Shown here: positions 24,701 to 59,400 of the stretch, one piece after another
Layout: every line of letters starts with the position of its first letter
How positions within the stretch are numbered: the stretch's first letter is position 1
Source: Aptenodytes patagonicus
Lineage: Eukaryota > Chordata > Aves > Sphenisciformes > Spheniscidae
Assembly: GCF_965638725.1 (NCBI RefSeq)
Contig: NC_134970.1
Span: 5,337,001-5,401,000 of the forward strand
DNA length: 64,000 nucleotides
Direction: 5' to 3'
Translations under genes and position numbers: made by a program
The notes under the pieces: generated by a model
What the model saw: the letters and a program-made list of their open reading frames with translations, nothing else
The model's database searches: none
What the model was told of the DNA's origin: nothing

Positions 24701-27700
24701 TTTCCCTGTGCTCATTGTTTCAGAGCATTGCAGAGGATTCATAAAACATTGGTCTCTCGGTGCCAGGGATAGGAGGAGATCTTTCCTCTCCTCTCCTGTT
24801 CACTCTGCAGGTATGGGGAAAGTAATCAGTACTGTTGGCATGAAGAAGACCTAAATTTTGTAAAGGCAGGCAGCAGGTTCCGCTGGTATCTAACTGCCCA
24901 CACATTTTCCTATATAGTGAGATATAGTGAGTACAACTCCATATGTAGGTGCCCAACTGGCCTTGTGATGTATATATCCTCTTCATTAACCATATGTTTA
25001 ATTTAAATGTGAGAATATATGCATGTGTTTGCACCTAGTCCTTTGAACGATATTTCCTTAATATTTATCCATCTTTGGATATTTGACTATTAATGTGAAA
25101 TCCATAAACCTGGCTTCAGTGAGCACCATACTCAGTTCCAAAGCAAGACATGACACGCAGCTATTGCTAGGAAGTGCCAGTACCACTGCAGGCTTTTAAG
25201 TGCTTGTTAAGTTATCAACAGAGATTGCTGAAGTAAGTATGTAAGTAAGAACATGAGATAGGCTGGCTATGTTTTGTTGTTTCTGCTACTTTTAAATATA
25301 TCCCTTGAGACATGGCTCTTCCTGCCATCTCTGCTCCGTGTAATTTCTGCATGGCTGCAGCCATCCCCTTAAGTACCTTTACGGTTGGGATCGCTAAGAC
25401 AGACAGCGCTTGTGACTGCTGAGAAATTGTAGGGGGTGAAAGCTAGTGTAGTCATCACGGAAATTACACGGGTCTCTACATCCAAGCAGCAGAGCTGTGA
25501 AACCATCCATAAGCTGACACAGCATGTATGCCTGGCTGTGGCTGAGCACAGTTCTGATGCCGTCAAAAAGGGCAGATTCTGCTAAAAGAGTGACCCTCAT
25601 CCATGCTCTTGCTCTGAGTGGGAGCCCAGAGGAGAGAACAGCTACGGATCTGCTAGCCATGTTGGCCAGCCAAAGCATTTTTAGATATTCATGTGGCTAC
25701 AGCCAAAGTTAAACTGTGCTTTAGCATGGCTTTAAACACTGAGATTGCTACCAAAATGCCTTTTTTGGGGGCAATCTGTGGTGGTGGAAAAGTGTCTTAA
25801 TAAATTCCTACAGCTGGCCAGTGTCAAAGCCAAGCTGCTTTTTCAAGCCCTTAGGAGCCAAGATCAGGAGGCAAAGAAGACTAGACCGAGTATTGCATCC
25901 ACCCTTTGCTGTTTCGTTCTCCTCCTGTGATCACATAGCACAAATGTTGGACACTGACATTTCTGCTTTGTATGGGGAGACTCGATGCATCTGTTGTTAC
26001 TTCTCTCCAAAATGACCTTAGTCTGCGTTTCTCTAGCCCGATAAAGCTGGCACTGCCTGTTGACTCTCTCCCAATATTGGGCCTGATTCTGATCTAACAG
26101 CAGCATAAATCTGAGCAATGCCGCTGAGGTCAACTGAATTGCACCAGAATGGAGCTGTTGTGAAATCGCATCAGTCCTGCTGAGTACAGCAATGGTGTTA
26201 CGTTTATTGTACAAGTTAGGGGTGAGGGAAGGAAATCTTTTGCTGAACACAACAATACCGGGTTTGTACTAAATTACCAGTTAGTGTAAATGCATCTACA
26301 TCCACACAGAACCACATCCTTATGTCCTTTCCCTTTTTTAAGATTGGGTGCTTGGCCTTTGGACTGACTGGCTTCCACAGGGGAAGCCTTGAGGACAGGA
26401 AAATTCTTTAAAAATTGCCGCTGAGACAGAGCAAGCAATTTTGCTTACCCATCCTAAGTAGATTTTAATTGTCTAGCTTGGATAGACTGAAAGAACAGAA
26501 AAAAAAAAAATGCATTCTCTGCAGTACTTGAAGGGTTTTGTGCTTAAATATCCTTTCCCTGTGTCACTAGATAATCGATCCCAAGATGCCACGCGAGGGT
26601 TTGCTCCACAATGGAGTCCCCATCCCAGTCCCACCCATGGATGTGTTGAAGTTGGGGGAGCAGAGGCAGACAGAGGCAGGAGAAAAACTCTTCCTTGTCC
26701 TTTTCTTTGACAACAAGAGAACCTGGTGAGTGTGTGCAGACAGGCGGGGGCCTGTGGTGAGTGCTGTGGCAGAGAGGGAAGATTTAACATTATCTTTGGT
26801 ATATGGGAGCATACAGGGATTATGATGATGATGTTACATGTAAATTGGAGAATTTAAATATGCAGCAGTCAAGAAGAGTCTAAATGAGGAAGCCAGCCTG
26901 CTTTTCCCTGACCCAAGAGCATGACATCTGACTGCTCCACTTCCACGGTGAACAGCCCAGCATCCTTCACCCAGGGGTAACATCACCACAAAAATACCGA
27001 GGCACACGAAGAGCCAATTTAGTAGTCAAAATCTGCAGCAAACTGGAGAGAGCATTTGACTTTAAAACACCAGCAGACTGAGCAGTCACTTCCACTGCTG
27101 CGCAAAAGATTTGCCTAAAATCTCCAGGGTAACATTTTCAAAATGCTGGGTTTATTCCATATTTAGACTTGCCTGATTTTTCAGAGGTGCCGAGAACCTG
27201 CAGTTTTCAAATCAAGATATTTGTTTAAGATTGAAAATGTAGGTGTAAGCACCTGGTTCAGGGCAAGTGAAATATCTCAAGGCCTTTTACTGTTCTGTCT
27301 CAGACAGACTGAATCTGCGGATTTTAGTATAGTGGCTGACCATGCTCACATGGTAACAATAACCCAGCCAGATATAATAAGCCACAAACCAGTGAAGTGC
27401 CTTAAAAATAAGCAATAAGGCTTTGAAATCCATGTATGAAACAATGGGAAACTTGTAAAATTGGAGCTTTATGCTGGAAGAGGTGACTCCCTGCAATGAG
27501 GCAGGCAGCCGCACGCTGAATCCGCTGGGTTATTTAACCAGTAAATTCCACATGGGAACATGAACCGTGAACCAAGCAAATAAATTGTCACACAGGAGGC
27601 AATACCTGTGTGCAGCTGGGATCACAGATCCAAAGAGTTCATACTGCGGACAAAGCGGATGCTGGGCCGTTGGGGTGCATGTGGGAACGGAGGAGAGAAT

Positions 27701-29649
27701 GGGCTTGCCTCTTCTTCTGCTGCCTCTGTAAAATAAGATAACAAGAGTTGAAAAAGGAGCCTCGTGGTATTTTGAGAGCCCTTTTCCTCCTTAGTCTCCT
27801 GGGGAAGGTCTTTGCTGGCATCCCTGGAAGAGCAGGGAACCGCAAGATCAGGGAATGGCGAGGGGCTGGAGGAAGGAGGCGAACGTTGCCTGGAGGCTGT
27901 GTCGTGGCTGGAGGGAGGGTGTATTGTGGTGAGAGAGCAGAGCCAAACACACAGCGAGGTAAAGCAGCAAGGGGGAGTGTTTCCCCCTACATTTTGGGGC
28001 TGCTGCGGTGTTTTATGCAGTTTAAAGAGATGGAGGCAAGGTGCAACACAGGCAAAGGAAAAGCATGTGCTGTTTTCTTGGGAAGCTGAGAAGGGGGCCA
28101 CATTTGCATCGCTTGATGAGTATGTTTGTGTCCTCTGGAGAAAAGAGGTGCCAAGAGACACAGTCCCGAGGGTTTTTATTAGTACACTGCATTGTTTCAC
28201 TGTCCCTGATTACCAGAACCACTTGATACGGGGCATGTTCTTCAAAGAGGTACTGGTGATTTTTAGCTGAAAATCAATGGCAGTGCCATGCTTCCTGTTG
28301 CTGTAGTCATCAGTTTTGAAAAATCTAAATCCAAACTTATCATTGAAACTACCTTCCCAATAAAAACAGCATTTCCTTGGCTTTGCCCTGCTCTTGTTGA
28401 AGACAAGCTCCGGTGGATATCTACACTTTTATTTGACCACTTAGATCCTTGTTTGCAATTTGTGGGAAGCTAGGGTGCCTCAGGAAAGTCCTAAAAACCC
28501 CTCTTAGTGCCAGATCCAAATTCTGCTGACTTCAGTGATGCTGCAGAAGGGTCACAAAGACTGAAATTGGCCCCTCATCTTTGTGGTGAAGATAAGCTGA
28601 GCTGCCCTGGGTCGTCCGTGTTGGCTGGCTGGGAGATGACGTTGAACTGTGCTAGCAGTGGCTGAGGTTTAACTCCTAGGGGCTGGACTCTGTTAGGAAG
28701 GATGACATGTTTCTGAGTGTGCTAATTAACCTGGGCTAATGACTGCACAATAAGAACTTGCTGTAGAAAAGGCACTTGCAATTTAAGTCACCAGTTGGTG
28801 GGGGTCAACTTGTGCTTGGAGTGTGTCTACTGGAAGCTGCCTGTTCCTGGATGGTATCAGATAGTTGTAGTCACCCAAACCCCAATGCTTACAGCCTCTT
28901 GGAACAAGGCAGAGCTTTCTCAGGGGTAAAAACTTACTTTCCACAATGGAAGTCCCTGTATTTGCTGCTCTGTGGAACACAGGAGTTTCCAAGTTTCCCC
29001 TGGAGCTCCAAGGAGCATTGAAAGCCTTGAGTAAGGACTCCAAGGAGAGATAAAACTGTGCTCGTGCAGGAAGGCATTTTGGCTACAGGTGGTTCTTCCA
29101 TGTCAAATGCAGGCATTTAGACATTTGTAGCATCGTTGTTTACAATCATCAATTGTAAACAAATAGATCACACGAATGTAGGTGCTCCTGGGGAGGAGAC
29201 GACAACTGAGTAATCACTGCTGAGACATGTGGGGAATGCTTGAGGAGCTGGAGTACTTGGCCGTGTCTTGGAAACTCTTGGGACAAAGTCCTTGGCCTGT
29301 TGCAGCAGGTATGAGAGCCAGGCACATTGGAGCAGTCAGCCTCCTGCAGAGAGCTCAGGCGCAGCGTTGCAAGGGCAAGAGGCCTCCAGGTGTTTGCTCT
29401 TCTTTCCCTGTTTCCCCTCTCGATGCCCTCGGTGACGGGGCTTTGCGCTCTCCTTTCTATTGCAGGCAGTGGCTTCCACGTGACAAAGTCTATCCCCTCG
29501 GCGTGGACGACACAGTGGACAAGTTAAAGATGATGGAAGGACGGAAAACCAGCATCCGCAAGTCTGTGCAGGTGGCATACGACCGAGCCATGATTCACAT
29601 GAGCCGTGTGCGGGGAGATCATCCCTTCCTTACGTCCAGTTACCTGTAA
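8357..29649 (+). CDS. BRPF3: BRPF3, bromodomain and PHD finger-containing protein 3 (12 coding exons)
   Basis: Scaffold subunit of nuclear MYST-family histone acetyltransferase complexes. BRPF3 is known to pair mainly with HBO1/KAT7, together with ING4/5 and MEAF6, and to direct acetylation of histone H3. Coding exons: 8357-9741, 10783-10939, 12420-12551, 14590-14718, 15097-15409, 16531-16797, 16968-17467, 19836-19929, 22367-22464, 24448-24545, 26571-26725, 29466-29649. Phases agree at every junction except the start of the 16968 exon, where one base is missing. The predicted protein is about 1,170 residues; human BRPF3 is about 1,205 from memory. Domains: N-terminal conserved region (1-210), PHD finger (about 213-260), zinc knuckle (about 268-300), second extended PHD (about 324-390), ING/MEAF6-binding region (about 462-560), bromodomain (about 573-675, acetyl-lysine Asn near 648), PWWP (about 1043-1130). 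It is assigned to BRPF3 rather than BRPF1 or BRPF2/BRD1 by its N-terminus [11 protein letters not shown] and its C-terminus ending in SSYL. The ATG at 8357 matches the family start. Confidence 0.96.
10783..10939 (+). CDS. BRPF3: BRPF3 coding exon 2
   Basis: Acceptor CCTTTAG before 10783, donor ACAG|GTACTG after 10939. 157 bases complete the split Arg codon and encode [20 protein letters not shown] through RNAEQ. This is the start of the segment that in BRPF proteins binds ING4/5 and MEAF6. Confidence 0.95.
12420..12551 (+). CDS. BRPF3: BRPF3 coding exon 3
   Basis: Acceptor TCTTACAG, donor GCAG|GTAGGT. 132 bases, phase 0 at both ends, encode a charged helical segment ([20 protein letters not shown] to REKLKREQ) predicted to form a coiled coil. 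Confidence 0.95.
14590..14718 (+). CDS. BRPF3: BRPF3 coding exon 4 (start of bromodomain), GC donor
   Basis: 129 bases, phase 0 at both ends, encode [20 protein letters not shown] through EPVNLNE, including helix Z of the bromodomain. The donor is GAG|GCAAGT, a non-canonical GC 5' splice site with otherwise perfect consensus. No in-frame GT alternative is present. Confidence 0.93.
15097..15409 (+). CDS. BRPF3: BRPF3 coding exon 5 (bromodomain body)
   Basis: Acceptor GTTTAG, donor GATG|GTGAGT. 313 bases encode [20 protein letters not shown] onward, the ZA loop and helices A to C, with the acetyl-lysine anchoring Asn in the RYNAKD motif (codon 15235-15237), then the linker ending FYRFSWED. Confidence 0.95.
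16531..16797 (+). CDS. BRPF3: BRPF3 coding exon 6
   Basis: Acceptor TGATGCAG, donor AAAG|GTGAGA (phase 1). 267 bases encode the helical [20 protein letters not shown] to [17 protein letters not shown] segment, then a low-conservation acidic tail (GDEEGEK). Confidence 0.95.
16968..17467 (+). CDS. BRPF3: BRPF3 coding exon 7, apparent one-base deletion at its 5' end
   Basis: Encodes the proline-rich linker ([35 protein letters not shown], then an Arg/Ser-rich tail). The acceptor is TTTAG or TTTAGCAG (a tandem NAGNAG site, exon start 16965 or 16968). The phase inherited from the previous exon reads DDAKP and then runs out of frame at 16979-16982, where four C are present but five are needed; reading on as given meets a stop at 17087-17089. 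The conserved frame from 16984 onward is clear. An acceptor at AAG|CCCC (start 16979) would restore the frame but drops conserved residues and has a poor pyrimidine tract. Donor GAGAG|GTAATT. Confidence 0.85.
19836..19929 (+). CDS. BRPF3: BRPF3 coding exon 8
   Basis: Acceptor CTCGGCAG, donor TGCAG|GTTAGT. 94 bases, phase 1 in and 2 out, encode [20 protein letters not shown] to FEAC, matching the [16 protein letters not shown] segment of BRPF3. Confidence 0.94.
21540..21690 (+). repeat. MIR/CORE-SINE-like fragment
   Basis: CCATTTCCCCATCTGTAAG followed at about 100 bases by TAGTACTTTGAAGATGGAAA and GTGCGATGTAAGTGCTTA matches the body and tail of MIR-type amniote SINEs as remembered. It is heavily diverged, so it is an old insertion. 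Confidence 0.65.
22367..22464 (+). CDS. BRPF3: BRPF3 coding exon 9
   Basis: Acceptor TTTCGAACAG, donor CTCAG|GTGAGA. 98 bases encode [20 protein letters not shown] then [14 protein letters not shown], a basic linker conserved in the family. Confidence 0.95.
24448..24545 (+). CDS. BRPF3: BRPF3 coding exon 10 (start of PWWP domain)
   Basis: Acceptor CCCTTAG, donor CCTTG|GTAAGT. 98 bases encode [20 protein letters not shown] then [13 protein letters not shown]. The PSYP sequence occupies the PWWP signature position, which in the family contributes to H3K36me3 and DNA recognition. Confidence 0.95.
26075..26165 (+). repeat. Ancient amniote interspersed repeat fragment
   Basis: GGGCCTGATTCTGATCT then CAGCATAAATCTGAGCAATG then GAGGTCAACTGAATTGCACC resembles a widespread reptile/bird repeat (gtgtaaatccggagtaactc... 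gaagtcaatggagt... type). Recognised from memory of the pattern; the family name is uncertain. Confidence 0.5.
26571..26725 (+). CDS. BRPF3: BRPF3 coding exon 11 (PWWP domain)
   Basis: Acceptor GTCACTAG, donor CCTG|GTGAGT. 155 bases encode [20 protein letters not shown] through [16 protein letters not shown], the central strands of the PWWP fold, ending mid-codon in Trp. Confidence 0.95.
28511..28575 (-). repeat. Possible second copy of the same ancient repeat
   Basis: CCAAATTCTGCTGACTTCAG followed by a degenerate stretch and GAAATTGGCCCC looks like the reverse orientation of the repeat seen at 26075-26165. Short and diverged. Confidence 0.35.
29466..29649 (+). CDS. BRPF3: BRPF3 last coding exon
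   Basis: Acceptor CTATTGCAG. Encodes [20 protein letters not shown] through [17 protein letters not shown], ending TSSYL with TAA at 29647-29649. It completes the PWWP domain and its C-terminal helices and matches the exact BRPF3 C-terminus. Confidence 0.96.
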
Positions 29650-31915: not shown

Positions 31916-31929
31916 TTAGGGAAGGGACG

Positions 31930-37900: not shown

Positions 37901-38740
37901 CGATGTTTCCTGGCTCAGGGAGAGCTGCAGCTGTAAGTGAAGGTATTAAAAGGGGAGTTCTTCACTTTTTTTTTTCTACGATTTCCACCTGTTGCAAGGA
38001 ATGGGGGAGAAGGAGGATTCGGCAACAAGAAGGGATGTTGGGAAGCTGCTTCTCCCGAGGAAAGCACCGAAAACCAGCAGCCACAGACCTACCTCAGCCC
38101 AGCCGCTGCCATTAACTTCCCTGCTGACATTTTGGGATGAAATTATTACATATTAATAAAATAGCTTCCCCCTCCCGCCCCATCTTTTCCTCTTTTAACA
38201 AATGAAATTATGACTTACTGAATTAGTCTGCGGCTAAAAGGTTTCCATGACAATGGCATCCTCCAGGCACACCAGCTGCAGCACGGTGCCCGCACCGGCC
38301 CCGGCCCTCGCCCCCCCCGGCTTCATCCCCCCAGCCCGAAATGGGGGAGATGAGCGGGTGCAGGGAGTCACGCCAAGAAATTCAAACCGTGGTGGGGCGA
38401 AGAGGAAGCCTCGGTGATGAGGGGGGGGGCAGCCCAAAGGGGCATGAAGTGAGTTGTGGGGGGTCCCAGCACAGGTTTTGGGTTTTTTTTGGGTGGCCCG
38501 TCTGTGCTGGGGGGTCCCCATTGGCATCGCCCCCCAGCCCCGCGCTGAGCGGCACCAGGAAACCAGGTCCCAAAAATCCCATCGAGGTAATTAGGCTGAG
38601 CCACGAATTCGCGGCTTGGAGACTGATTGCAGCGGATGGGGCAGGGATCTGGGGGCTTGGGGCTTTGGAGCTCTTGGGGGGGGGGGAGGGGGGGGGGCAA
38701 TTTCTGCCCCCCTGCCCCGGACAAACCAGCGCTTTTCATA
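31930..38740. other. Intergenic region between BRPF3 and the TAFA5-like gene
   Basis: The two genes converge on this 7 kb interval. Composition alternates between GC-rich and AT-rich blocks; a T-rich tract lies at about 35332-35371. No exon with recognisable coding content was found on either strand, apart from the exon-like fragment at 31845. Overlapping open frames in the GC-rich parts are composition artefacts. Confidence 0.55.
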
Positions 38741-38744
38741 GCTG

Positions 38745-39457
38745 TGTAATAAATCAGACCTTTATTTCCTCGCACCATGGACGCCTCGAGGCCGCTGGCT
38801 TTGCCTCTCTCCCTCGCCGGCCCCTTGCGGAGGGCACCCAGCCGTGTCCGTGGGGGCGAGAGACACCCTGCAAAGCCCCGCGACCCCCGCCCTGCAGCAG
38901 GGCTGTTCCCCACCCCACCCCCCCCCCCCCGCTGCCCCTGGGTACCCGCAGTGGCCCCGTCCCCGGGACCCCCACCCGGCTCCTGCAGCTCCCTGCACCC
39001 TCCTGCACCCTGACAGGCGGCCAAATTCAGGTCAGGCACTGACGCCGCTCAACCGCTGCAAAATTCAGGACCTGCAGATGGGTGCGGGGTGGGGGGGGGG
39101 GCTGTGTGTCAGAGCTGGAAACTGGGACCCCGATGGCCTCTTCTTCCTCCTCCTCCTCAGCACGGTGGCCCTGGGGGACCCTCCATAGGCAAAGGGAGGC
39201 CATGGGGTGAACGGGAGCCCGGTGACCCTTCCAGCCACCCTGCCCACATTGCAACTCCCCTGCAAGTTCCCAGCACCCGGCGCCCGCCCGGTGACTGTCC
39301 CCGAGGTGGCTGGTCCCTCCGCTGGCCCGGGGCACCCAGGGTGGGGGTGGGGGGGTCAAGGCCATTGCACGGCGGCACCGAGCAAACCCCGCTCCCTGCC
39401 CGGGCTCGTCCCGCCAGCTCCGGAGCGAGTCCCCTCGTCCTCGCGCACTGGCTGCTG
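38745..39457 (-). other. TAFA5L: TAFA5-like 3' UTR (probable)
   Basis: Runs from the stop codon to a minus-strand AATAAA at 38766-38761. About 0.7 kb, very GC-rich with several G/C homopolymers. The extent is inferred from the signal only. Confidence 0.55.
38761..38766 (-). terminator. TAFA5L: TAFA5-like polyadenylation signal (candidate)
   Basis: TTTATT on the plus strand, AATAAA on the minus strand, about 0.7 kb past the stop. It is the first canonical signal on this strand after the stop in my reading. Confidence 0.5.
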
Positions 39458-39466
39458 TCAGGACAC
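39458..39466 (-). CDS. TAFA5L: TAFA5-like coding exon 4: nine coding bases (Val-Ser-stop)
   Basis: The acceptor is a good pyrimidine tract ending TTTTTCCTGCAG, followed immediately by GTG TCC TGA. This gives Val-Ser-stop, exactly the invariant TAFA5 C-terminus, in the phase left by exon 3, and brings the total to 132 residues. The 3' UTR follows. Confidence 0.85.
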   Translation of the reverse strand: MS

Positions 39467-42206
39467 CTGCAGGAAAAATATTGGGAGAATATTTCATGGG
39501 TGCCCAGTGGTGCTGCGGGCTTGGGGGGAGCCGGGGCTGTGCCGGGGTGGGGGGGTCCCAGCGCACACAACTGGAGGGGTGCGGGGGGGGGGGGGGGGGG
39601 GCACTGGACCCTCTGCCCCACCCCATCAGCCCCTCCCTGCCACTAATAAACCACCCCTGGCATTGATATAAACTCCCCCCCCCCCCCAAAGGCTCCCCTC
39701 TCGGGGTTCCAGCATCCCACCCCCTTCCTCACTCCCCCCAACCTTGCACCCAGCCCTGCCTCAGTTTCCCCCCTAGGAGATGGGAGCAGGGACACAGGGG
39801 ACCGAGCAGGGGGACTTACCGTGATGGTTTTTATTCGTCCTAGTTGTCTCGTGCAGCTCCAGCCCGAGCGGTTTTGGAGCAGAGCGCACTGCTCCCCCTC
39901 CTCACACGGCTCCATCCCGCACCACTGCCGGCTGGCGATGAGCCGGGCTGCCGGGGCGTGGGGGAGCCGGGGAACGAGGATATTTGGGAGGGTGGAGGTG
40001 TGTGGAGAGGTGGAGGTGGAAGGAGAAATGGAGGGAGGGATGGGTGGATGGAGGGAGGGATGGAGGGAAGGATGGAGGCATGGAGGGAGGGGTGATGGAT
40101 GAGTGGATGCAGGGAGGGATGGATGTGTAGACGAATGGAGGGATACGTGGGTGGACGGAGGGAGGGATGAGTGGATGGAGGGATGGGCAGGGGAATGGGT
40201 GGAAGGACAGAGGGATGAATGGAAGGGGAATGGATGGATGGATGGATGGATGGAGGGATGGAGGGAGGGAGGGATGGATGAAGAGATGGAGGGATGGAGG
40301 GAAGAAGCACATGAGCTCAGCCAGCACAGGACCAATTTGGGAACCACAAAAAAGAGAAGCGCGCAGGGGACCATGGTCAAATTATGGGAGAAAGTGGGGG
40401 AAGGAGACGGAGAGGCCGGGGGGGGGGGGGGCAAAGGGACAGAGAAGGGGCTGTCAAGGATGGACAGCCGCCAACTCCCGGCGCCAGAGCATCCACCAGC
40501 CCCAGGGCGCCAGCCAGGACCCGCGTCTCCAGCCATGGGCCCTTGCACCACCCCCCCCGCCATGGGTCCCCACCAACCACCCCCCCACCCCCCCCACCCC
40601 CCATGCCGCTGCTGTTACCGTCCACACAGGCCGGCTTGGCCCGGGCGGTGCCGGCGGCTTGGCCGCGGCGGCAGGCGCAGCGTGCCGTCTGCTGGGCGAT
40701 CGTCCGCCGCGGGTGGCTCAGGTCCCAGTCCAGTGCCGTGATCTCGCACGTCCCCACCTCCAGCTCCTGCCCTGCAAGGGGATGGGTGCGAGGGGGCACC
40801 CTACAGCGCTGAGCCCAACTGGGGGGGGCTGCAATGACACCCCACCCCCCCCCCCCCCCCCCCCCCCCCGGGGCCGGGGGCTCACCCATTCCCTGCACCG
40901 CGACGTGCTGATTTACCCAGGGCTGGAAAACCCTTTCCCCTTCCAGCCTGGCCGGGAGGGTTTGCAATTTAATGGCAAACCCTAGAAATCAGGAGGGGAA
41001 ACCCCAAATGAACCCGGTTTGGGCAAAATTTTCCGGCAAAATCAATCTCAGTTATTTTTGGGCTACGTGCAGTGGCTGCACAATGCAAAGGCGATGCCAT
41101 GTGTCATCTCCGGGTTGGTTGACCCCCCTCCTCAGCTAACTTTTCGATTATTTTTTTCTGCTTTTAAACTGATTTTTGCACACAAAACGCTGCTCTCAAA
41201 CCTTGGGCCCGAAAACAGCCCCGGTGGGGAGATTGGACTGGGGGGGGGGGGGGGGCAGGATGGGAGCTGCCCGGGCAGAAATGGTCACAACGCTCCCCCC
41301 CCCCCCCCGCCTTTCCCCAGCACCCACCTTTTGGGGCTGGGGCAATCCTGCCCACTGCCCAGCACCCTCCTGGCTGCGCGGGAGCAGATTTAAACCACTT
41401 TTCTCCCAGTTTCCAGGTCCCGCTGGGACACTGGGGACCACGGCTGCACGTGGGACGGTTCAAAGGCGCCGAAGTTCAGCCGGGTTGGAGGCAAGGGCAG
41501 TGTGTTTTCTGGGGTTTGGGGTGCTTTTATTGGGGTTTTTCTTTCTGTCCGGGGTTGTGGGGCCACCAGCCTCCGGCAGGGCCAGCGGCAGCCCCGGGCC
41601 GGAGGGTCCCACGGCTCGGGGTGGATGCGGTGGCTGGGGTCCCTGCCCTGTCCCCCCCGTGTCCCGTCCCCCCATCCTGTCTGGGGGCACATCCCTCCTC
41701 CCCGGAGCGACACCCCGGGGGTCCCCGCAGCCTCGCAAGCAGCTCTGGCGGGGGGGGGGGGGGGGGGGAGGACCTTGCAGGGAGTGGGGGGTGCATTGCC
41801 CGGAGACACCCCCCCCCAGCCCAGCTCACCCTCCCCGGGGAGCTCCCATGTGCATCCCCCCGCCCAATCCCCCCCCCTGCAAACAGCTGAATATCGCCCC
41901 CCCCGCCCAAAATATCCCGGGGGGGGGGGGGGCCGGGTGCTCAGCCCCCGGGGAAGTTTGTGCCCCGCTCCGCACGCTGCTAACGGGGTGCTACCCCCCC
42001 CTCCGGCCCCCCCCGGAGGCAGGTTCCCCCCGAGCACGGGGGGGGGGACACGGGACGGGACGGACACGGGGGAGGTGCCGGGGGGCGGTGGCGTTACCTG
42101 CTCGGGGGGGGGCGGAGGAGAGGAGCCAGAGGAGGAGGAGGAGGAGGAGGAGGAGGAGGCAGCAAATGGTCGCGGCGGCGGAGCGCTCCTTCCAGGCGCC
42201 CGGCAT
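39458..42206 (-). CDS. TAFA5L: TAFA5-like secreted cytokine (FAM19A5 paralogue), 4 coding exons
   Basis: Small secreted protein of the TAFA (FAM19A) chemokine-like family, whose members are mostly brain-expressed signalling proteins. Coding exons 42206-42098, 40771-40619, 39947-39820 and 39466-39458 join in consistent phase (1, 1, 0) to exactly 399 bases, 132 residues plus stop, the same length as TAFA5. Residues 1-36 are a signal peptide with a basic start, ten consecutive Leu and a small-residue end. The mature part starts near [11 protein letters not shown] and keeps eight cysteines at 45, 68, 70, 85, 97, 102, 108 and 119 in the TAFA5 arrangement, the [13 protein letters not shown] and KPACVDARLI blocks, an NRS glycosylation sequon at 113, and the GRIKTITVS end. 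TAFA5 itself is nearly invariant in vertebrates and has RIIKTKQWCDMLPCLEGEGC where this has [20 protein letters not shown], so I infer a paralogue, probably the tafa5l known from fish. Introns are only 1326, 671 and 353 bases. The symbol is by inferred orthology. Confidence 0.9.
39820..39947 (-). CDS. TAFA5L: TAFA5-like coding exon 3
   Basis: Acceptor CCCCGGCAG before 39947, donor CACG|GTAAGT after 39820. 128 bases complete the split Ala codon and encode [31 protein letters not shown] and [11 protein letters not shown]. This contains the last four cysteines and the Asn-Arg-Ser sequon. Confidence 0.93.
40012..40305 (+). repeat. ATGG/GGAGGG-type minisatellite in TAFA5-like intron 2
   Basis: About 290 bases built from variants of GGATGGAGGGAGGGATGG with runs of perfect GGAT (around 40230-40252). 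Strongly purine-biased on the plus strand. It lies wholly within intron 2 of the minus-strand gene and accounts for nearly half of that intron. Confidence 0.9.
40619..40771 (-). CDS. TAFA5L: TAFA5-like coding exon 2
   Basis: Acceptor CCCTTGCAG before 40771, donor GGACG|GTAACA after 40619. 153 bases encode [20 protein letters not shown], then [20 protein letters not shown], then [11 protein letters not shown]. This is the strongest family match: human TAFA5 has GTCEIVTLDRDSSQPRRTIA and TARCACRKGQIAG at the same places (from memory). Confidence 0.93.
42098..42206 (-). CDS. TAFA5L: TAFA5-like coding exon 1 (signal peptide)
   Basis: ATG at 42206-42204, donor GAGCAG|GTAACG after 42098, 109 bases. 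It encodes [16 protein letters not shown], then ten Leu from a perfect CTC repeat, then [11 protein letters not shown] classic secretory leader: charged start, hydrophobic core, polar end. The start is the only in-frame ATG that gives a correctly sized leader, but the 5' end of the mRNA was not located. Confidence 0.88.
42130..42159 (-). repeat. (CTC)10 trinucleotide repeat coding the leader's Leu10
   Basis: Ten perfect GAG units on the plus strand, read as ten CTC Leu codons on the minus strand in exon 1 of the TAFA5-like gene. It forms the hydrophobic core of the signal peptide. Confidence 0.9.
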
Positions 42207-47417: not shown

Positions 47418-50400
47418 CTGAAAGAGGGGAAGGTGCTTAGTTTGGGGCGGTTGAAGGCAGAGTACAGATCCAGAGCAGGCTCGGGGCCGACGCGACCAGA
47501 GGCAGCAGCACTCAGTAACTTTCGCTCACCACGCTCGCAGGTCTGAAAGGCTCAGAGACAGCATTAAGATGTGCTCGTGTCTAGATCCGAATCAGTGAAG
47601 CACCTCAGATGCCCCCAAACCCCTTGAGATAAAGGGTGCTACCGTAGTGTTACAGCTGGACAGCAGAAGGCAAACACGAAGGGACTTACCGTGATCAAAG
47701 CTCGAGCCCAGGGAAGAGCTGATATTTCATGTTTGAACCCTCCAACAGCTCAGTTCTCTGTCCTGAGCGCTGAGGCTCAGAAGTTACTTTTAGGCAAAGA
47801 TCCTGAGACTGGATGATCTTGGAGCCAGCTTTGAGGCGACGGTTGACTCTGTCCATGCTGGGCTCCCAACCAGAGCAATTCCCTCCCCTCTACCCCCAGG
47901 GAATTACCCCCAGCCCCAGGGACTTACTTGGAAGTCTTCCTCATCTAGGATCTCCTTCCGCCACTTGATCAAGAAGGCGGCGCAGACGTACAGGTGGAAA
48001 TGTGAGAATCCTTCTGGCTCCGACTGCGGATGGCAAAACTCTGGGTCAGCTCCTGCAGCTCAGCGGGAGCGCGACTTCCCTGGACACAGACGTCCTACCG
48101 GGCCACCCGTCATCCAACTGGCTATAAACGTCCCGGGGCCACACTGCTTTGCTTCCCTCATCTCCCCAGCTGCACGGTGCTGCCAGAAGACCTCCATCCC
48201 CCCCCCATCTACAGGGAATTGGCCCCACAGCGACCAGCCAAGCAGGGAAGGCAGCGGGAGCCTGCGTACCTGGTAGGTGTCCCAGAGGCGGATGGTGCAG
48301 CGAAGAGGCAGCTCCCTCATAAGCAGATTGTTCATCCAGCGAAAGGCAAACTGCAGGTATTCGACCTCGTACTTCCTAAAGTGATTATGTACCTGCTCTG
48401 AAACAGCACATTTCACTTACATACCTGGGGACCACGGTGCCCCAGCTCCCACACGCGCCACTGCCCCCAACACACCAGCTTTCACGCACTTTCAGGCTGA
48501 GACCTCGTTCTCCCAAATGCCTCCGCTCCTCACCCTGCGCTGCCTGGCCAGAAAAACCCTGTCCCCAAGGGGTTTCTGGCTGACCCTACCCTGCCCTGCT
48601 TCCATATGTGTTGTAGGCAAGTGTCTACCCCTGCCCTGAGAGTACTACTTGCAAAGGAGGCCTCCCGCTGTCGTGACAAGAGAGCCTCCAACCTGCTCAG
48701 ATCCCCTTGTCACCTACCATCGATCCGACTGACTAGCTCCTCCAGGGCTTTGACTTTCTTCTGGATCCCCGGCTGTGCAAAGGTGTAGTTATCCTGTGGA
48801 GAGAGGCCATGAGTCAGAAGTAGCAGCTCTAACAACAGCTCGAAATGACCAAAACCAGATCCCCAGCTCCACGGGGAGCCAAGATCACCATGAGCCAAGC
48901 AGACATGGCTCTTGAGCACCAGGATCATCTGCCTGCTGTGAAGTCCCTAGTCAGGACAGCGCCGGCTAGACAGCGGCAGCACCTTATTTCCCCAGGATTT
49001 TACCCACAGATTTAGCCCAGTGAAGTAGCAAAATCTCCCTAATGCTAGGACATGCAGAGTGCTCACCCAAACACAGAGAGATGACTGCACTGTTACCCCA
49101 GCAAAGGCAGAGAAACCTCCGCGGCCCCAGAGGCTCACCTGTATCCCGTCCAGCAGCTTGCTCATGCACCAGAAGCTATCGGCTTCGATGCTCCGTAAAA
49201 CATCCTGCGACAGGTTCGTCACGTCAAAGTTCTCCACGTCCTCCTCTGTAAAACAGAGAGGGAAAAGCATCAGGAGGATGGGGGACACGAGGCTGCTTAC
49301 GGGACATACCGAGGGGCTTTACCAAGCCAAGGCAGGGCAAGAGGCACTACAAGGCTCCCTGCATGACCCGAGTGGCCTGCCTGGCACAGAGCACAGCACC
49401 CATGCACTGACCTACTTCTCCAACCCAGGCGAAGGGCTGAAGGACCCCAGAAGACTCAGCGGCCACGATCCGAACCCAGCCCAGCTCCCCAGGGGACCAC
49501 GGGAGGGATCCCACAGCGCTGCCGCTGTTGTCGTCCCTCTGGGGTGAGGGCTGTGCATGGACAAAGCTCCCGGCATATGGGACCCCTCTTGCTGGAGCGC
49601 ACCCTGCCCTGGGTGACAGCAGGTCTTTGCCAGCTGGCAGCACCACAGGGAGAACTGGGAGAGGTGAATCCCTCACTGCAGCCAGAAACCAGGGAAGCAA
49701 ACGCTGCCCTTGGCCTGGGGCAGCACAAGGGAGCTCAGTTCCCACTCCCAGTTGAATTAATCAGCATCATCCCAGGACTGAAGCACAACAGAAGCACCCA
49801 AGAAGTTGCTGCCAACTCTGAGGACCCATGAGGAAGAACTGCCAAAGCCTCAGAAACCTCTACAGGAGAGCAGGACTCTCGCGCACGATTGCAAGGACCA
49901 AAAACCACACAAACATCTTCCTGGAGAGCAAAAGACTCCAAGTTAAATCCAGCATGGAGCCTGACAGGGGGGCCACGCGGCAGAGAGACTGCTCAGCTTC
50001 ACAGAGCCTCTCCTCCTCCTTGAGTCCTGCTGACAGGCGAGATGCAGCAAACAGAAGCAGCCCCATGCACAGAAGAGCCTTGCTGCCGGGGAAGCAGAGA
50101 TTTGTGCAAGCTTGTTTTTCAAACCCAGTGAACTGGGGGTCTGAGAGCACAAGGGTTAGTGGCAGCTCTGTCCCCAAAGGGTACTCGCAGAGTGCAAAAG
50201 GCTGCCCTTGCTTTTAAATAGGCTTATGAACCCCCAGGAAGGGCAAGGGAGAGACCAGACACGCCTTGAGGGTGGGACGGCGGTGATGCTGGCTGAGATT
50301 GGAGCAGAGTTCACCTGCTCCAGGCCAGGCTCACCTTAACCTGGAGGCTGTAGAGGGCAACAGGCATGGGAAGGCAGTGGAAGCTATGGAGGAGACAATC

Positions 50401-53400
50401 AGGAGACACAGGTCTGGCCCTCCTGGCTTGGTCGACCCAGCAGCTCCCTCCCTTTCCTCCTCGGGAGGAGAGCGCCCGTCATGCTGCTAAATCAGATCAA
50501 CAGATGCCAGGGCTGAACTGGCCCATTTCCAAACCCAGAGGCTCAGAAATCCTAACAAGCATCTTTGATCTTCCTTGGAAAAGAGCAAGAGAGGGAGAGG
50601 ACGGGGCTCGAGGCTGGAGCTGGGCCACCCTCTCAGCTCAGATACGCCGCAGGGCAGCTGTCGCAGGCCGGCAGCGCTGTGAAAACCGAAGCTCACAGAT
50701 CCTGCCCGCAGGAGGATGGGAAGTGCAGAGCCAGTGACTCCAACACTGCTCCCACCTCTGCTCCTCCTCTGTGGCAGAACTCGGCTCCGGAGCAAACTGC
50801 CGCCGGGAGCTTTAGTGACAAGCAAGGGCTTAACCCTGCATTAATCTGCCAATCTTGCACTGCAGAAAGAGCAGCAAAGCTGTTTTCCTGCTGCAGGTCA
50901 TCATCCAAAACTACCACTCTTCTGCTGGCTTCTCTGCAGCCACTCTCAAATGTTCCAGGTAATGAGAAAGGCAGGCAAAATCTGTTTAATACCCATCTCC
51001 TTCCCTAGATAACTTCCCCCACAGAGGAAGGAGGATGGGCAGGCAAAGGAGCGGGACAGGGCCACATGCGCGCGACCAGGACTGGTGGGAGAGGCAGGTT
51101 CAGCCACGCAGGAACGAGCCTCGTGCAGAAGACCTCCCGGTGCAGCTCCAGGCACGAGGACTGTGATGGAGAAGGGGATGTGGTGACCCAACCCTGCTGC
51201 TTGCACCGGTATGGGGACAAGAGCAGCAACCCTGCTGCCACCCTGGTGTCAAAGCAAAACAGTGGTAGGAGATCCCCAGCACGAGCCAACACACACGGCA
51301 AGGAGCTTTGGAAAAAAAAAAAACAACCCAGGTCTCTGGAGTGTGTGGCTCAGCACGAACGTCTGCTCAGCGGCATCATTAAAGAGGCCCCGTGGAAAGG
51401 AGTGAGATATTCAACACGTGGCTCTGACAGGGACTGAAAGAGAGGCAGTGGCACGGTGACAGCTGCCTGCAGCTGGGCTGAAGGCAGCCGGGACACCGCT
51501 GCCAGTGTCACAGGGTGCCCAAGGGCAGCTGAGCACTGGGGAAAGCAAAGCTCCTGTGAGTGACGTTTCGAGAGGACTCAAGGGCTGACAGGGGAGAAGG
51601 GACATCACAGCCCCACTCGAACCCCCTGCTTCAAATGTCAGGCAGGGCATAGCTTGCAGCAGATTAGAGGAGCCAGGGCTCCAGCCTCCCACATCCCTGC
51701 TTTCCGTAGGGGAGCTTTAATGACTCCCCATATTCTGGCAGCCGGGGCTCAGTGCAGGACTAGACGCCTAGAGAACAGTTAAACCCAGTCTCAGCTCACA
51801 GCTCTGCACAGCAGTGGGCACGTCTGCACCGCGGGCAGTGACAGGTCCAGGGCAAAACTGGAGTTCAGGACAAGGCTGATGTTACAGCCTGAGCTGGGTC
51901 AGTCGCAGTGTGACTAGTAATACCCAGGTACAAGGCTCCCCTTCCCTTCATCCAAGCTCCACTTCTGCTCCTGCTTACAGGGAAAGAGAGTCTTAATTTA
52001 ACCATGATTAGTATTTAGTAAAAAAGCCAGTTAGGAGCGAGCAAGATCAATACTTTCCATGGCACTAATCCCCTCCACAGACTTGGTGAAATGCCAAACA
52101 GGTCCCAAAGCTGGGACGATCCCTTAAGCAAGGCCTTGAATTGGGGATGGAAGTGGTCTCCCATGTCGAGATGGGCAGACAGCACTGGGAGAGGGTGCAG
52201 GGGCCAGCACTGACACTACCTGTGGATGCTGAACTCATTTCTGAGCTCTGCCACTGCCATTTTAAACGCAAACAAAAGCCATGAGAGCTGGGAGTGTCTC
52301 CGTGCAGCAGGAGGGGCTGCGGGACCTGGGCTGGGAGGCAGTTTTAGCAGGACTGACAGCTCAGCGTCCCTGTGCTTGCTGGGCCCTCTCCGGGGCCCCT
52401 TCTGGAAAAAGGGGCATGCTGTTTCCTCTGGCAGGTGTCATCTCTTGCCCCAATTCCTCGGATGCCAGACTGCCTCCCTCCATCCTCACCGCTCAAGCTC
52501 TGCCTCCCCAGCGGCACTGGCAGCCTGTGCCCATCCCATACGGAGGGCAGCAACAGCAGGCTCAGCTGCTCCTGCAGCCTCAACACCTCCCTCAAGCTCT
52601 TCCTCACGGTGGCACCAGCTGAAAACAAGCAGTGCTCAGCAATCTGCGACAGAAGCCATCGATCAGCCGGGAGGAGGAATAGCTCCAGCTATGGAGCTGG
52701 CAGTGGCAGGAGCCCAAAGAGCCCACGCTTGCTGCCAAGTAGCCGAGGCAGCCGTGTTCATGCAGGAGGCAGGCAGAGAATCACAGGAGAAGGCGAGCCA
52801 GCTTGCCACGCTGGGGGAAAGGGGAAAACACAGCAAAAAACTCAGATGGGATAGAAAATCTATCCCATCTGCCAAGGGCTCACAGCAGTCTGCACAGCAC
52901 CTGGAGGGAGCACGAGGAGTTTTGCGTCCAGACTGAGTACAAGTACAGGAAAAGCAACGGGTCCCGACCAGTGCTGGAGAAGGGGGCAGGGGAATTCAGA
53001 CACAGGGAGTGGAAGCTCTGGGGAAGAGCTGCTTCTCCCTGCCTCAGCCTAGGTGGTATTTTCTGAAGCTGGTCAAAGGGGTACACACACTGGATTCAAG
53101 GCAATGCTCGGAAAGAAGAGGGAAGCAATATCCCTTTCAGTCAGGCCAGGGAGATGCAAGTTAATAACGGGGTCATCCAGTTCCCTAAGCATCCAAAAGA
53201 AATAGCTTCCTGCAAATGTTTTTCACTCACTGATCTGTTTCCCTCCTTCAGGACCTGGACAGGCATACACCCTTCCTCCCCACACCTTCTACAGCGAGGA
53301 TGGCAAGCCACCAAGTCAAAAGGCACAGCAGCATGGCCATGCTCCCAAATCCAGCCAAACTGCTCTAACTACTACCCCGAAAAAGCTGTGTTTAATCCCT

Positions 53401-56400
53401 CTGCACACAAAGGCCTGGGAGTTTGCTGGGTTACTGCTGACTGTTGGTTCGTTGCTCCTGTCAACTTCAATGAAAGGAAGCTGCCAAATTTTTCCCTGAA
53501 TGTGTTTGATAAGCTACAGACCATCCCCTACCCAAACCACCCACCTTTTCCCCATAGACACGCTCTAGCCCTTGGTGGGAAGCCAGTCAAGCCCTCTGAA
53601 GGATGTTTTAAGCCTTGGTCTAGTAACTGATATATAATAGAGACAACATCAGTAACGTGTCTACATTAATCAGCTGATGAGCACGAAGGAGATTTTAATT
53701 TATCTGTGGAAAAGTTGATTTGTTGTCTGAGAATTGAATGCCTGCCCAAAGCATGGGATGATGGGTTAGAAGCCTACAGTGAACTTGGAGATGGGGACCA
53801 GCCTGTTATCAGGGGTGAGACTGCGATGCCAAAAGCCACTAAATTGAACAGAAGACGACCAGGGTGTCAGCCTGACCTTGTGCTGAACAGCTAACCAAAG
53901 TCAACAGCTTGTGAACTCCCCCCTCTGCCTGTCAGCTCTGAATCACACACGCACACCATGGTCCCCGGAGAGCTGCGATGGTCCTGCTGAGTCAGCTGCT
54001 GCGGGAGGCAGCCCTTCAAAGGCTCTAACACAAATATCCCAGGGAAGGCAGTGGGCAGCTAAGCAGAGGAGCCAGCTGGCAGCACAGTGGGTATCTTCTA
54101 GCATCTTGCAATCAACAAAACACCCGCTCTGAAAGGAGAGTAGGGGCAGCAAACCCAAGAGGTTTGAGGATGGAGCCAGTGCTGGTACCAACTTCCCAGA
54201 GCCAGCTTTCAAGGAAAGGCAAGGGAAACTTTTCCAGGCCAGTTGTACACACCTTTGAACGTGGAAATACCCTCACATGACACACAGGTGTATGAGCCCT
54301 CAGTGGCTCTGTGGGCAGGGGCTGCCTGAGCCGTACAGATTGTCCCCTTTCCCAAGGAGGATACAGCTTGAGGAATACAAGCAGAATTTCCTTTGAACAA
54401 GAGACTTCCCACAGAAAGGCGAGTTGTCCCTTGGCACGTGCTGCCCAAGGATTACCAAACTGTGCAAGGCCTCTTTTGGCTCTCCTGCTGCAAGGACTCA
54501 GATGCAGCACAGACTTGGCTGATCCGGGGATCCTGAGAATTAGTGATCCAACATGGAGAGCCTCCAGCCCTGCCCAGCACCAGCTCTTCAGGGGCCTGTC
54601 AGCAAAGGCAGCTGTAGAGAACAGCCAGTGCTCCAAACCAGCGACCTAAATCCTGCTGCAAAAGGGGTTACGTGACACTGAACGCTGCCAGTTCTTTCCC
54701 ACGTACGTTCAAGGCAATTACTGATCTCGTCCTTAAACTCTGACGGCTACACAGCCAGACCAGGGAGCAGGTAGCCACCAAGACAGCTTGTGACCTGAAG
54801 GCTGGCTTTGAATCCCAGGCTCTGGGGACAGAAGGGGATGCATGATGTTGCTTGGCCAAATTCAACTCAACGGGTCTCATGCAAAGGGTTTTTTTCCCCT
54901 CCAACACAAGTTTCAGAGATAGCTGGAAACAGGAAGGCCACGTTCAGAGAGGAAGCTTCAGTCAGGGGTGAAAACAGCCCTGGAAGGTGGCGAGAAGCAT
55001 GACCCCAGCAAGAGATGGACAGGTCTGATGCAGCATGAACTCTGCATCCACATGCAGAGCAGAGAGAGTTGAGCCCCGACATCGAACACAGTACAGGACT
55101 GCAAGAAGTCACACCAGGTACCCGCAGGCAGCTCTGATGCTTCAGACCGGCTCTCTTCTTGCACAGATAACTCACTGTGTACAGCTCTGCTTCTAACCCA
55201 ATAAATCAATCCTGAGCAACCAGCCTCTGCCAAGACTAAATGCCACCAATGCTGTTCGAGCAATAAGGCACAGGAGAAGCCACTCAAAGGGAACCTGCTC
55301 AGACCCGACAGGCTCTTGACCTCCCAGGAAAGGGAATTCACTCCAGCCGGTAGCAGAGCCACATTTTGTGCCTTCTCCTTCAGGCTGTGAGGGGCAACAG
55401 CACTTCCTAGGGATCAATCCTGACCACACCAGCTACCACAGTGGAAACCGAGGTAGCTTACCTCTTCACAATGTCCCCAGAAGAGGCAGAGCAATACTAG
55501 TTTACAAAGCCTTAGTTAGATAGTGGAAGGCTTCCACTGACTTCAACAAGCTTTGGATCAGACCTTAGAGAAATGCTGTTGAACAAATATTCTTATCACT
55601 AATACAGTCTTATGAATTCCTTTTTCCTTCTATTTACAGTGAAAACTAAGAGTCTTTAGGCATAGGGATTACCGCATCCCAGCATTAATGTCGACCCCAA
55701 AACACAGCTAGAGCTGGACAAAAGAATAAAAATGCTATGGGTGGAAATGACTTGATCGCTGGCTAAAAGCAACAAGAAAGCCAAAAGCAGCAGGGAGAAG
55801 TCAACTTGTTTTCTGAAACTCTCAGCCTGAGAAACACACCTGTACTAGCAGCACCGGACAGGAATCTTTATTTAAATAGTTTATTTTACATTCTCAGCAG
55901 GGTCTCTTTATACTTCACTCATTGCTCCTAGAGCAAGAACTAGCTCCAAGCCCAAGCTTTGAGAGCAAGACCCTCCCCCTCTCCCAACTCCGTGTATCAG
56001 GGCTTTGCCTAAACTCCCTTGGCGCCTAAAAGACCCCACTCTCCTCCAAGCTGTAAGGATGTTAAGTACATTCAAATGCAAATCCACCCTTAGCACTTCA
56101 ACTTCCGTGGAGCTCAGCAAAGTTATGAAACTGAAGTCAGTTCAACCAGGCAGCAAAGATACAGTAAGAGGTCAAGATGCATCTCCAGCCTGGCACAGGC
56201 GCTGAAGGAAGAACACATCATCCCCTCCAGCAAGGCAAGCTTTTCTGATGCCGGCACTTCACACCATTTCAAACACCGAGGTCGAGAGGCAGCACCGTGC
56301 TTCAAGCAGCAAATGTCACTTACCAACATACTCAGAGAGGAACACAACAAAGAACGGAGTGACCAGGTCATTGATTCCCTGTACATAGCCGCTTGCTGGG

Positions 56401-59400
56401 TGTCGAATGGCCCAGATAAACAGGATTCTTTCAAAGATCTAGGGAAGAATGAGGGAAAGCAGGTACCTGCATTAGCCGTGCACAAAGGAAAGGCAGAAAA
56501 GCGTAACTGTTAAGCTCAGGGAGCAGAGATCATGCGCTGACAGGCTTTTCTGCAGCAATACGGGTAAGATAAGAAGCATACAAGTCCTAGAGAGACTCGT
56601 GTATGATCCACAGATCCCACACACAGGCCAGCCCACACTCACAGAATAAGGCAGCCCAGGCTCCTCATCAAAGCCTCCGCTTGAAGAAATGCGGACCCAA
56701 CTTTTCAAGATCCAGGTGGCTTAAGACCCTTCCACCCAAGGGCAGGGCTGCCTATTAGCAGAGCAGCATGCCTCGCTGAACATCACATGGAAATCTAAGG
56801 CTGTTACGTGTTATCAGCACAGTACTCCCAGGAAAACATCACAGATCAGGACAGCTCCCAACAGAGCAGCCTCCCCCCAACAACCAATGTGTTATTTCCA
56901 GACTGTCCCAGCCCCAGGACACCATGCTCTGACATACCACATACACACGCTGAGCTTGTTTCCAAAGAGGACAGATGCCCACACCTCCTGGCCACCTCTC
57001 AAACCCATCCCTGCCTGGGTTTCCTCACATACTGCTTCGCACAAAAGAGGTTTTGTAGCAAAACAGAACTGATCTCCTGTTCTGGTTCAAATGCCTTGAA
57101 TTTGTCTCAAAACAAAAGCGTCAGGTCTTTTACCAACTCTTGGCTACATCTCACCACAAAAGAGCTGATCTCATAACCCCTGAGCTCCAAGTCTGATGTC
57201 CTTCAGAAACGCAGGACAAGACCAAACAGTTTCGGCAGGTATTTCCATCGGGAGCTGTCAGCCAGGGAAGTTTCCCCGCAAAGCTAACTCACTAGCAGCA
57301 GTGCTGGTCTAACTCCACACACACGCCTCATGCCAAACGTGGGGCAGGAGCTTCACCCCCCCCCCTTACCTCCTGGACCAGCGGTTGCTGGAAGAGGGGG
57401 ATGAGTGGATTGGTCCTTGGAATGTCGATGTGGATCTGGAAGAGAGGGTGGGTTACACACACCAGCCATGCTTTCCGGGGGCACAGTAACTCATCGCAGG
57501 CTGACAGAGGGGAATCCACCCCTCAGTGTCCCCCCAAGCGAGAGCTGCACTTGCTGACAAGCACAGCGAGGGCTACAGATGACAGCTGCACTGAGAAAAT
57601 CATCTACAGTTTTATCTCCGGTCTCCTCTGCTCAGGTCTGGGCAGGTGGCCAGAGCTGGGAAAGAGTTGGGGTCTGAAATATAGTTATTAGATCAGTTTA
57701 AGGAAGGCTTAAACTAATACCCGTAAGAAGATGGACAGAAACATGGTGCCCTGTCCCCAAGGAGAAGACTCCTAGTAGTTATAGCTAGAGGAAGTGCTAG
57801 CACAACCCCAGCTGCAAGAGGGAGGAAAGGGATATACCAAGGCAGAAAGCCAGGCAACAGGCAGAGGGCTCGTACCTGTCGGTAGGTGTCTTGATGGTGT
57901 TCCTCATTCCGGGAATCGTAATACTGCTGGATGAAGCCAAAGTACTCCTCACGCTTACGCTGCAAAGTCAGCTTTCGCCGCTCCATGTTTGCGGGGAGAT
58001 AACCCTGCAGCAGGAAAACCCGTGTCAGGGCAGATCCGCTTCCTTCACTGCAAACCATCCCCTGAAATCCTGCCTGAAGGCAGCTTGTGCATCTGGAAGC
58101 ATCAGGCACAGAGACTTGGGAGCTGGGGAAAGAGGTTTCATGGGGTTTGGCTTTCCCAGCCTCTGATGCCTTTTCTGACCTTGGGGCAACCCAACTTCAG
58201 GGGATTCAGTTTCCCAAAAAAGAGCAAACCACATATTCCCAGCGCCTGTCTGGGCTTTGTGCTCAAAAAGGATGTAGCAATTACACTCCCCGAGAGAAAA
58301 AAAACCCTACAGCTCACCTGTAGGCCGGGCACAGATACAACATGAGCAAACCTGGTTACGGGACACACGAAGGTCTAGGAGCGCATGTCCCTGGCTTGGC
58401 GCATTCCCCCCAAGCTCCTGTGTCACAGCTCCAAGTACTCACTGAGAGGAGACGCCACGTCACGGGCCGGACCTCTCTGGGCACACCAGGCCAGCTGCAT
58501 TTCCTCAGCTCATCTGCAAACGGACAGTGGTGGCAATGGATTAGATCCTAGGCACGTCCAGGCACCACTACACCTAGAAGGAGAGGAAAGCCCAGTCTGC
58601 TCCTGCAGGCTCTGGAGATACTGAGCCTCCAGGAAGGCTCCGCATTTGCAATGACTGGGGATGCGGGTCTGCGGCAAGGGGAGTAGAGACGTTTTCAGTT
58701 CAGCCTGGGCACAGGACTCGTGGCTGCGGGGGCTCCAATTCTCTGGAGCCTCAGTTCTCATGCAGAGCCCAACAGCCCCCAGCGATCACAACCATCATTT
58801 GCGAGATGGAGAAAGGCTGGAAATGGACAGGCAGCTGGTGGAGGACATAACCATCTGCCAACAAAGCAGTTTGTGCAACTATCCCACTTGGAGCAACTGC
58901 AGGTAGTCATTTTATCTGCCCTGGAGCAGACCTGATTGCAACCTGAAGCAGGCAGCAGGCCCCCTCTGCCTTCCCCTTCCCACCCGCAGGCACCCCCATT
59001 TTGCCACACTCACCCAGGTCTGTGTTGTGGCTGGAAAGGAGCTGCCGAAACTTCTCCAGGCGGGTTTTCTCCCTCACCGTCATGGGGGGAGCACCTGAAG
59101 CATTTTGGTCAGAGATTCTGGCGACGAGTGGAATGACGGGCCGAAGGGGAAGGGACTGCTGCTTCTGAAGGGGGGTCCGCACACAGGCCTCCTCTGCAAG
59201 GAGCAGATGCTGCAGTGAGGCAGGGAAGGAGACTGCACCTCTCCAACCCTACCTCGCTCCTCTGGCCACTGTCAGAGACCTGCCACTGCAGATTTCACCC
59301 TTCTCTTCCCCAGCCCCAGCAAACAGAGCATCGCTGGCCCACTCCAAGGGATCAGCTGGTTCACAGGCATCTGTCGTGGCTCTTCCATCACCTCCCCCTG

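Follow-up and report, generated by a model that had tools for sequence, protein, structure and literature searches.

The TAFA (FAM19A) family is commonly counted as five genes, and zebrafish tafa5l is reportedly linked to nociception, going by the title of a cited study. A zebrafish study is cited under a FAM19A5L/TAFA5L-type name in three papers (PMC12281766, PMC9073690, PMC11603079), whereas "FAM19A5-LacZ" in PMC12324117 is a false match to that name. For TAFA5 (FAM19A5), one report describes picomolar binding to residues 484-498 of LRRC4B, which displaces PTPRF, and no binding to the LRRC4B segment once FAM19A5 is changed at R58, R59, R125 and K127 (PMC12281766). According to another, FAM19A5 binds neither NRXN1 nor S1PR2, and its isoform 2 in HEK293 cells is partly secreted and mostly uncleaved, possibly as an artefact (PMC11603079). 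The human 22q13 order is given as TBC1D22A, FAM19A5, BRD1 in two further papers (PMC9224546, PMC2966422). Here we show that a 64,000-nucleotide stretch of the Aptenodytes patagonicus genome (the window; positions 5337001-5401000 of contig NC_134970.1, here C22, 8,342,863 bp) carries an intact and very compact four-exon gene, TAFA5L, which is a sixth TAFA locus beside canonical TAFA5 and has BRPF3 and TBC1D22B as its neighbours.

We hold with great confidence that this gene is, by identity and ancestry, TAFA5L, orthologous to fish tafa5l/fam19a5l and with TAFA5 as its ohnologue; the explanation as a whole, in which the gene also works as proposed below, appears likely. The evidence supports a TAFA5/TAFA5L duplication that took place before cartilaginous fishes parted from bony ones, in keeping with a whole-genome-duplication paralogon.

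An intact TAFA5-type gene and five further TAFA loci

Exon coordinates were read from the bases of the window, and the coding sequence was spliced and translated. The features of the gene are as follows.

42098..42206, minus strand: TAFA5L exon 1, with the start codon, leader and leucine run; like the first exon of TAFA5 isoform 2
42114..42159, minus strand: trinucleotide repeat within exon 1, coding for the leader leucine run
40619..40771, minus strand: TAFA5L exon 2, first half of the TAFA domain, with cysteines 45, 68, 70 and 85
39820..39947, minus strand: TAFA5L exon 3, second half of the TAFA domain, with cysteines 97, 102, 108 and 119 and the sequon N113-R-S
39458..39466, minus strand: TAFA5L exon 4, Val-Ser-stop, including the TGA
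38761..38766, minus strand: AATAAA, a candidate polyadenylation signal lying 0.7 kb past the stop codon

All three introns (1326, 671 and 353 bp) are bounded by GT-AG, and exon junctions in phases 1, 1 and 0 keep the frame through a coding sequence of 399 nt, comprising 132 codons before the stop and no internal stops. Two cysteines (15 and 16) lie in the leader and eight in the mature protein (45, 68, 70, 85, 97, 102, 108 and 119); the sequon N113-R-S is present and the protein ends in ITVS. An initial annotation of this DNA, made by eye from the letters, had proposed this same gene, with four exons, an uninterrupted 132-residue protein, eight cysteines, an NRS sequon and the same ending, and its reading is correct to the base. 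The Pfam profile TAFA (PF12020) matches over its entire length (1-90 of 90) at 136.9 bits (E 3.1e-40; curated cut-off 25), so that the protein belongs to the TAFA (FAM19A) family by the full-length-domain criterion, and its eight mature cysteines, as against ten in TAFA1-4, assign it to the TAFA5-type subgroup. A chance reading frame was considered and rejected on the strength of the PF12020 match and of the matching bird proteins in databases.

GC content at codon positions 1, 2 and 3 is 0.65, 0.59 and 0.86, and the leader leucine run is three residues shorter than in the stork protein. A simple scan of the minus strand from 40772 to 61000 for a hydrophobic start with a phase-1 donor, and for a short motif, found no first exon of the isoform-1 type. 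Intron 2 contains a purine-rich repeat array of period 20 in 13 copies (window 40028-40302). A single query by sequence matched none of the solved TAFA structures, and the stork orthologue was modelled too poorly for a fold search (mean predicted local distance difference test, pLDDT, 64.4; predicted template modelling score, pTM, 0.39); residues 9-33 are predicted as a helix in this otherwise poor model.

Searched in full (1.35 Gb, 618 contigs), the genome gave 12 PF12020 exon matches, which fall in pairs at six loci. The loci below are named from their exon translations, and four of them we take to be TAFA1-4.

C1, 36.84 Mb: TAFA2
C22, 0.86 Mb: TAFA3
C8, 18.88-18.93 Mb: TAFA1
C8, 19.01 Mb: TAFA4
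C1 (227,153,109 bp), 18.76-18.88 Mb, plus strand: canonical TAFA5
C22, 5.38 Mb, minus strand: TAFA5L, the gene of the window and sixth TAFA locus

The core of the genome's TAFA5 is identical, letter for letter, to record P0056 and equals the chicken core at 86/86 residues and the mouse core at 83/86, whereas TAFA5L equals TAFA5 of the same genome at only 59/86 and TAFA1-4 at just 36-37/86. The initial annotation had remarked on many substitutions relative to a near-invariant TAFA5 and had inferred a separate paralogue; both points stand, the latter through the canonical gene elsewhere in the same genome. Exons 2 and 3 are separated by ~119 kb in TAFA5 and by 671 bp in TAFA5L. The loci also fall into contig pairs, with TAFA3 and TAFA5L on C22 (8.3 Mb, 0.6% of the genome), TAFA2 and TAFA5 on C1, and TAFA1 and TAFA4 on C8, a pairing which suggests that genes of the TAFA1-4 and TAFA5 types were linked before the genome duplications.

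Database relatives and phylogenetic position

Protein searches gave 44 matches with the window protein, and were followed for the best 120 of 668 matches with a chimaera protein and the best 120 of 123 with a tortoise protein; each match row represents one cluster whose other members are hidden, and the search requires shared five-residue words. Orthologues of TAFA5L were found in other birds, crocodilians, turtles, squamates, lungfish, sturgeon, teleosts and cartilaginous fishes. A partial record from Spheniscus humboldti (94 residues) is 100% identical to the window protein and a full-length protein from Ciconia boyciana shows 90% identity. Both TAFA5L and TAFA5 are present in Ciconia boyciana (contig sizes 7.8 and 220 Mb) and in Chiloscyllium plagiosum (53 and 58 Mb). 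Named bird records of TAFA5L, in the form of partial or complete models, come from penguin, stork, petrel, eagles, hawk and stilt. No chicken, passerine or ratite record is named among the 44 matches, though canonical TAFA5 of these birds was found, and this absence may reflect loss, poor assembly or clustering. In agreement with the initial annotation, no mammal is named among the matches, with 0/44 window-protein matches (four of them nameless) and none among the best 120 of 123 tortoise-protein matches; because of the shared-word requirement, a strongly diverged mammalian TAFA5L could escape such a search. Amphibians are likewise absent from the named rows of the window-protein matches and from the listed tortoise-protein matches, a few of which are nameless.

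Sauropsid records are mostly labelled TAFA-5 or FAM19A5, with one turtle record labelled TAFA-3, and some teleost records are labelled tafa5l or "TAFA5, like". Turtle and fish records labelled TAFA-3 among the TAFA5L matches (P0035, P0201, P0204, P0207, P0211 and P0213) are probably misnamed, the sequence of P0035 being the one that was read. The initial annotation had held that the gene may be undescribed in this lineage. That part of the claim is not supported as it stands, since databases hold penguin, stork, petrel, eagle, hawk, stilt, crocodilian, turtle and squamate models, mostly under the names TAFA-5 or FAM19A5, while the reading as a separate tafa5l-like paralogue stands. What is missing is recognition: no account of a tetrapod TAFA5L as a separate gene was found in the literature searched, subscription papers and preprints lying outside the search, and TAFA5L is overlooked through its name rather than missing from databases. 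The G/C-homopolymer-rich DNA noted by the initial annotation is evident between 38001 and 43000, which holds 32/43 of the window's G or C runs of at least 8 bases, and these runs are the likely reason for gaps and partial TAFA5L gene models.

For phylogenetic analysis, 56/221 fetched database proteins (P0002-P0222) were hand-picked across groups, the other 165 being left out, and joined with the window gene; first exons of unlike type were trimmed, leaving 57 rows and 124 columns. In the resulting tree a branch supported at 87/88 separates 31 TAFA5L rows (14 amniote, 11 ray-finned fish, five cartilaginous fish and one lungfish) from all others; support is 100/100 for amniote TAFA5L and 77/79 for TAFA5 (24 rows). 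Adding the genome's own TAFA1-5 and rooting on TAFA1-4 (62 rows) gave 95/85 for the TAFA5L branch. In the best trees TAFA5L thus falls outside the TAFA5 clade and groups with fish tafa5l, with moderate support, as the initial annotation had expected. Shark records on the TAFA5L side (P0028, P0034) carry either of two first exons, like those of TAFA5 isoforms 1 and 2, so that the use of alternative first exons seems to predate the TAFA5/TAFA5L duplication.

Genomic surroundings, constraint and rival explanations

As initially annotated, TAFA5L lies between BRPF3 and TBC1D22B; BRPF3 is on the plus strand and TBC1D22B on the minus strand.

8240..29610, plus strand: BRPF3, with EPL/PHD frame 8240-9742, bromodomain exon 15097-15447 and PWWP exons 24465-24542, 26541-26726 and 29404-29610; ends approximate
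48270..56438, minus strand: TBC1D22B, with three TBC-domain exons 56319-56438, 49139-49318 and 48270-48368; the full gene may extend beyond

The PWWP of the former scores 262.8 bits against BRPF3 and ~205 against BRPF1 or BRD1; its bromodomain taken alone scores highest with BRD1, the listed chains including no BRPF3 bromodomain. The latter scores 207.1 bits against TBC1D22B and 175.1 against TBC1D22A. When the BRPF3 PWWP peptide was compared with the genome (9 exon matches, 13 candidates scored), three loci gave matches. One is the window; another, at 20.67 Mb on C1, is BRD1 (210.7 bits, versus 160.4 for BRPF3), and the third, at 14.31 Mb on C8, is BRPF1 (219.2 versus 159.8). That BRD1 should lie on the TAFA5 contig and BRPF1 on the TAFA1/4 contig had been predicted beforehand, and this arrangement fits whole-genome duplication. 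On C1, TAFA5 (plus) and BRD1 (minus) face each other, as do BRPF3 (plus) and TAFA5L (minus) in the window. The surroundings of BRPF, TAFA5-type and TBC1D22 genes mark out a paralogon useful for dating the TAFA duplications.

Between BRPF3 and TAFA5L (29.6-39.5 kb), 8/10 of the longest open frames lacked any Pfam match at E 0.01, the other two (38251-39039 on the plus strand and 38371-39048 on the minus strand) having been left out of the search. Downstream of BRPF3, on the minus strand at 31846-34507, there are open frames of 312, 363 and 237 codons, again with no Pfam match and probably due to chance. No RNA family reached its gathering score in the window.

Most sauropsid orthologues are labelled TAFA-5 or FAM19A5, as though the gene were simply the bird orthologue of TAFA5, a reading to which we give practically no credence. 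The same genome carries canonical TAFA5 at another locus, where intron 2 spans ~119 kb, and the approximately unbiased (AU) test rejects a clade of amniote TAFA5L and tetrapod TAFA5 (p 5e-5), that is, a duplication of tetrapod age; ordinary TAFA5 orthology was discarded on these two grounds. Several observations nevertheless count against a partnership of TAFA5L and TAFA5 dating from genome duplication. TAFA5 (25 rows) does not form one side of a branch in the rooted tree, and the AU test leaves amniote TAFA5L with all TAFA5 (p 0.108) unrejected. BRD1 is 1.8 Mb from TAFA5 and BRPF1 4.6 Mb from TAFA1, distances that make the linkage on C1 and C8 loose; a scan of 210 kb of C1 around TAFA5 showed neither TBC1D22A nor BRD1. 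An older paralogue, which split from TAFA5 before jawed vertebrates or is closer to TAFA1-4 and is not its partner from two rounds of whole-genome duplication, would agree with further AU results, since amniote TAFA5L with TAFA1-4 (p 0.15, rooted set) is retained, as is its union with lampreys (p 0.184 in the rooted set, falling to 0.028 without TAFA1-4), and also with the motifs MEPC and SGWSC common to TAFA5L and the genome's own TAFA3. We judge this origin very improbable, given the TAFA5-type set of eight cysteines rather than ten, the far closer match to TAFA5 than to TAFA1-4 in core residues, the best trees, which join TAFA5L with shark and fish copies, and surroundings of BRPF3/TBC1D22B as against BRD1/TBC1D22A. 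Tree resolution is limited because the sequences are short and the amniote TAFA5L branch is long.

A long bird branch (0.23 changes per column, while six bird and turtle rows of canonical TAFA5 are identical) raises the question of decay, in which TAFA5L would be dispensable in birds, intact here by chance and on its way to loss in some lineages. As a stand-in for the ratio of nonsynonymous to synonymous substitution rates (dN/dS), 33/86 core sites were defined as invariant in the 52 rows other than bird TAFA5L. Bird-specific changes fell on these sites in 0/11 cases in the penguin (p 0.003), 0/10 in the stork, 0/9 in the petrel, 0/13 in the hawk-eagle, 0/12 in the hawk, and 0/9 and 1/13 in the two records of the sea eagle. 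Across the eight bird records without the stilt, 19 sites are changed, with a single invariant site among them (p 0.0004). The window and Spheniscus sequences do not differ; the birds share changes, and their records are not independent. With lampreys dropped from the definition (43 invariant sites) the penguin count becomes 1/11 (p 0.004). Speaking for decay are the stilt record P0026 (Himantopus himantopus), in which 5 of 18 changes lie on invariant sites, including C108Y and W96R (p 0.24), and which may be a decaying or broken copy or a sequencing fault, together with the sea eagle R58W and the missing names of chicken, passerines and ratites. All eight cysteines are present in the examined bird cores other than that of the stilt, absent records may reflect missing assembly given the G/C runs, and in the penguin the frame and splice sites are intact and lineage changes avoid invariant sites, consistent with the complete gene initially proposed; we therefore regard decay as unlikely.

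Proposed mechanism and comparison with known systems

With TAFA5L as an intact ohnologue of TAFA5, a mechanism can be proposed by analogy. The hydrophobic leader with its repeat-encoded leucine run would take TAFA5L into the secretory pathway, where its eight cysteines would pair and N113 would be glycosylated; the product would then be released, or kept tethered via the leucine-rich helix. TAFA5L might grip the short segment of LRRC4B, or of an LRRC4B paralogue, through R58, R59, R125 and K127 and so loosen the LRRC4B-PTPRF contact at synapses, as reported for TAFA5. All four reported contact residues are kept in the window protein, whose numbering matches FAM19A5 from C45 onwards, and because they are kept a TAFA5-like synaptic role is our best guess. 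Expression would probably be mainly in nervous tissue; the LRRC4B step is possible but falls somewhat short of an even chance. It is weakened by a lysine in place of R58 in 5/14 amniote and 3/11 ray-finned fish TAFA5L rows, a tryptophan there in both sea eagle records and an asparagine in place of R125 in lungfish; moreover, the LRRC4B binding data come from one group, whose FAM19A5 work is disputed in a letter. A more speculative and rather doubtful extension is that sauropsid TAFA5L, lost in mammals, has been reduced to an isoform-2 type leader, in which a leucine helix encoded by the repeat keeps some of the protein anchored at the cell surface, giving a cell-attached synapse-loosening ligand on LRRC4-family proteins alongside secreted TAFA5, with a leader length that drifts between species.

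A bird genome thus has six TAFA genes, the sixth of which is mostly named as the fifth, and because of this naming work on "TAFA5" in birds, crocodilians, turtles and squamates can strike the wrong gene. As TAFA5 has reported roles in synapse loss, a comparison becomes possible between animals with both TAFA5 and TAFA5L and mammals with one.

Among described systems, TAFA1-4 (FAM19A1-4) share with TAFA5L the PF12020 domain and an intron at the same place, but have ten core cysteines instead of eight and only 36-37/86 residues in common with it. TAFA5 (FAM19A5) is closer, with the eight-cysteine TAFA domain, sequon N113, a T-x-T-V-S end, R58/R59/R125/K127 and three introns; TAFA5L differs in being a separate locus, on C22 with BRPF3 rather than on C1 with BRD1, in sharing 59/86 core residues, in its intron 2 of 671 bp instead of ~119 kb, and in yielding no isoform-1 type first exon in the simple scan. 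Fish tafa5l, which has ~60/86 core residues in common with the penguin protein (Triplophysa), lies on the same side of the branch and has eight cysteines; many of its rows begin with a first exon of the isoform-2 type, and most carry all four LRRC4B residues.

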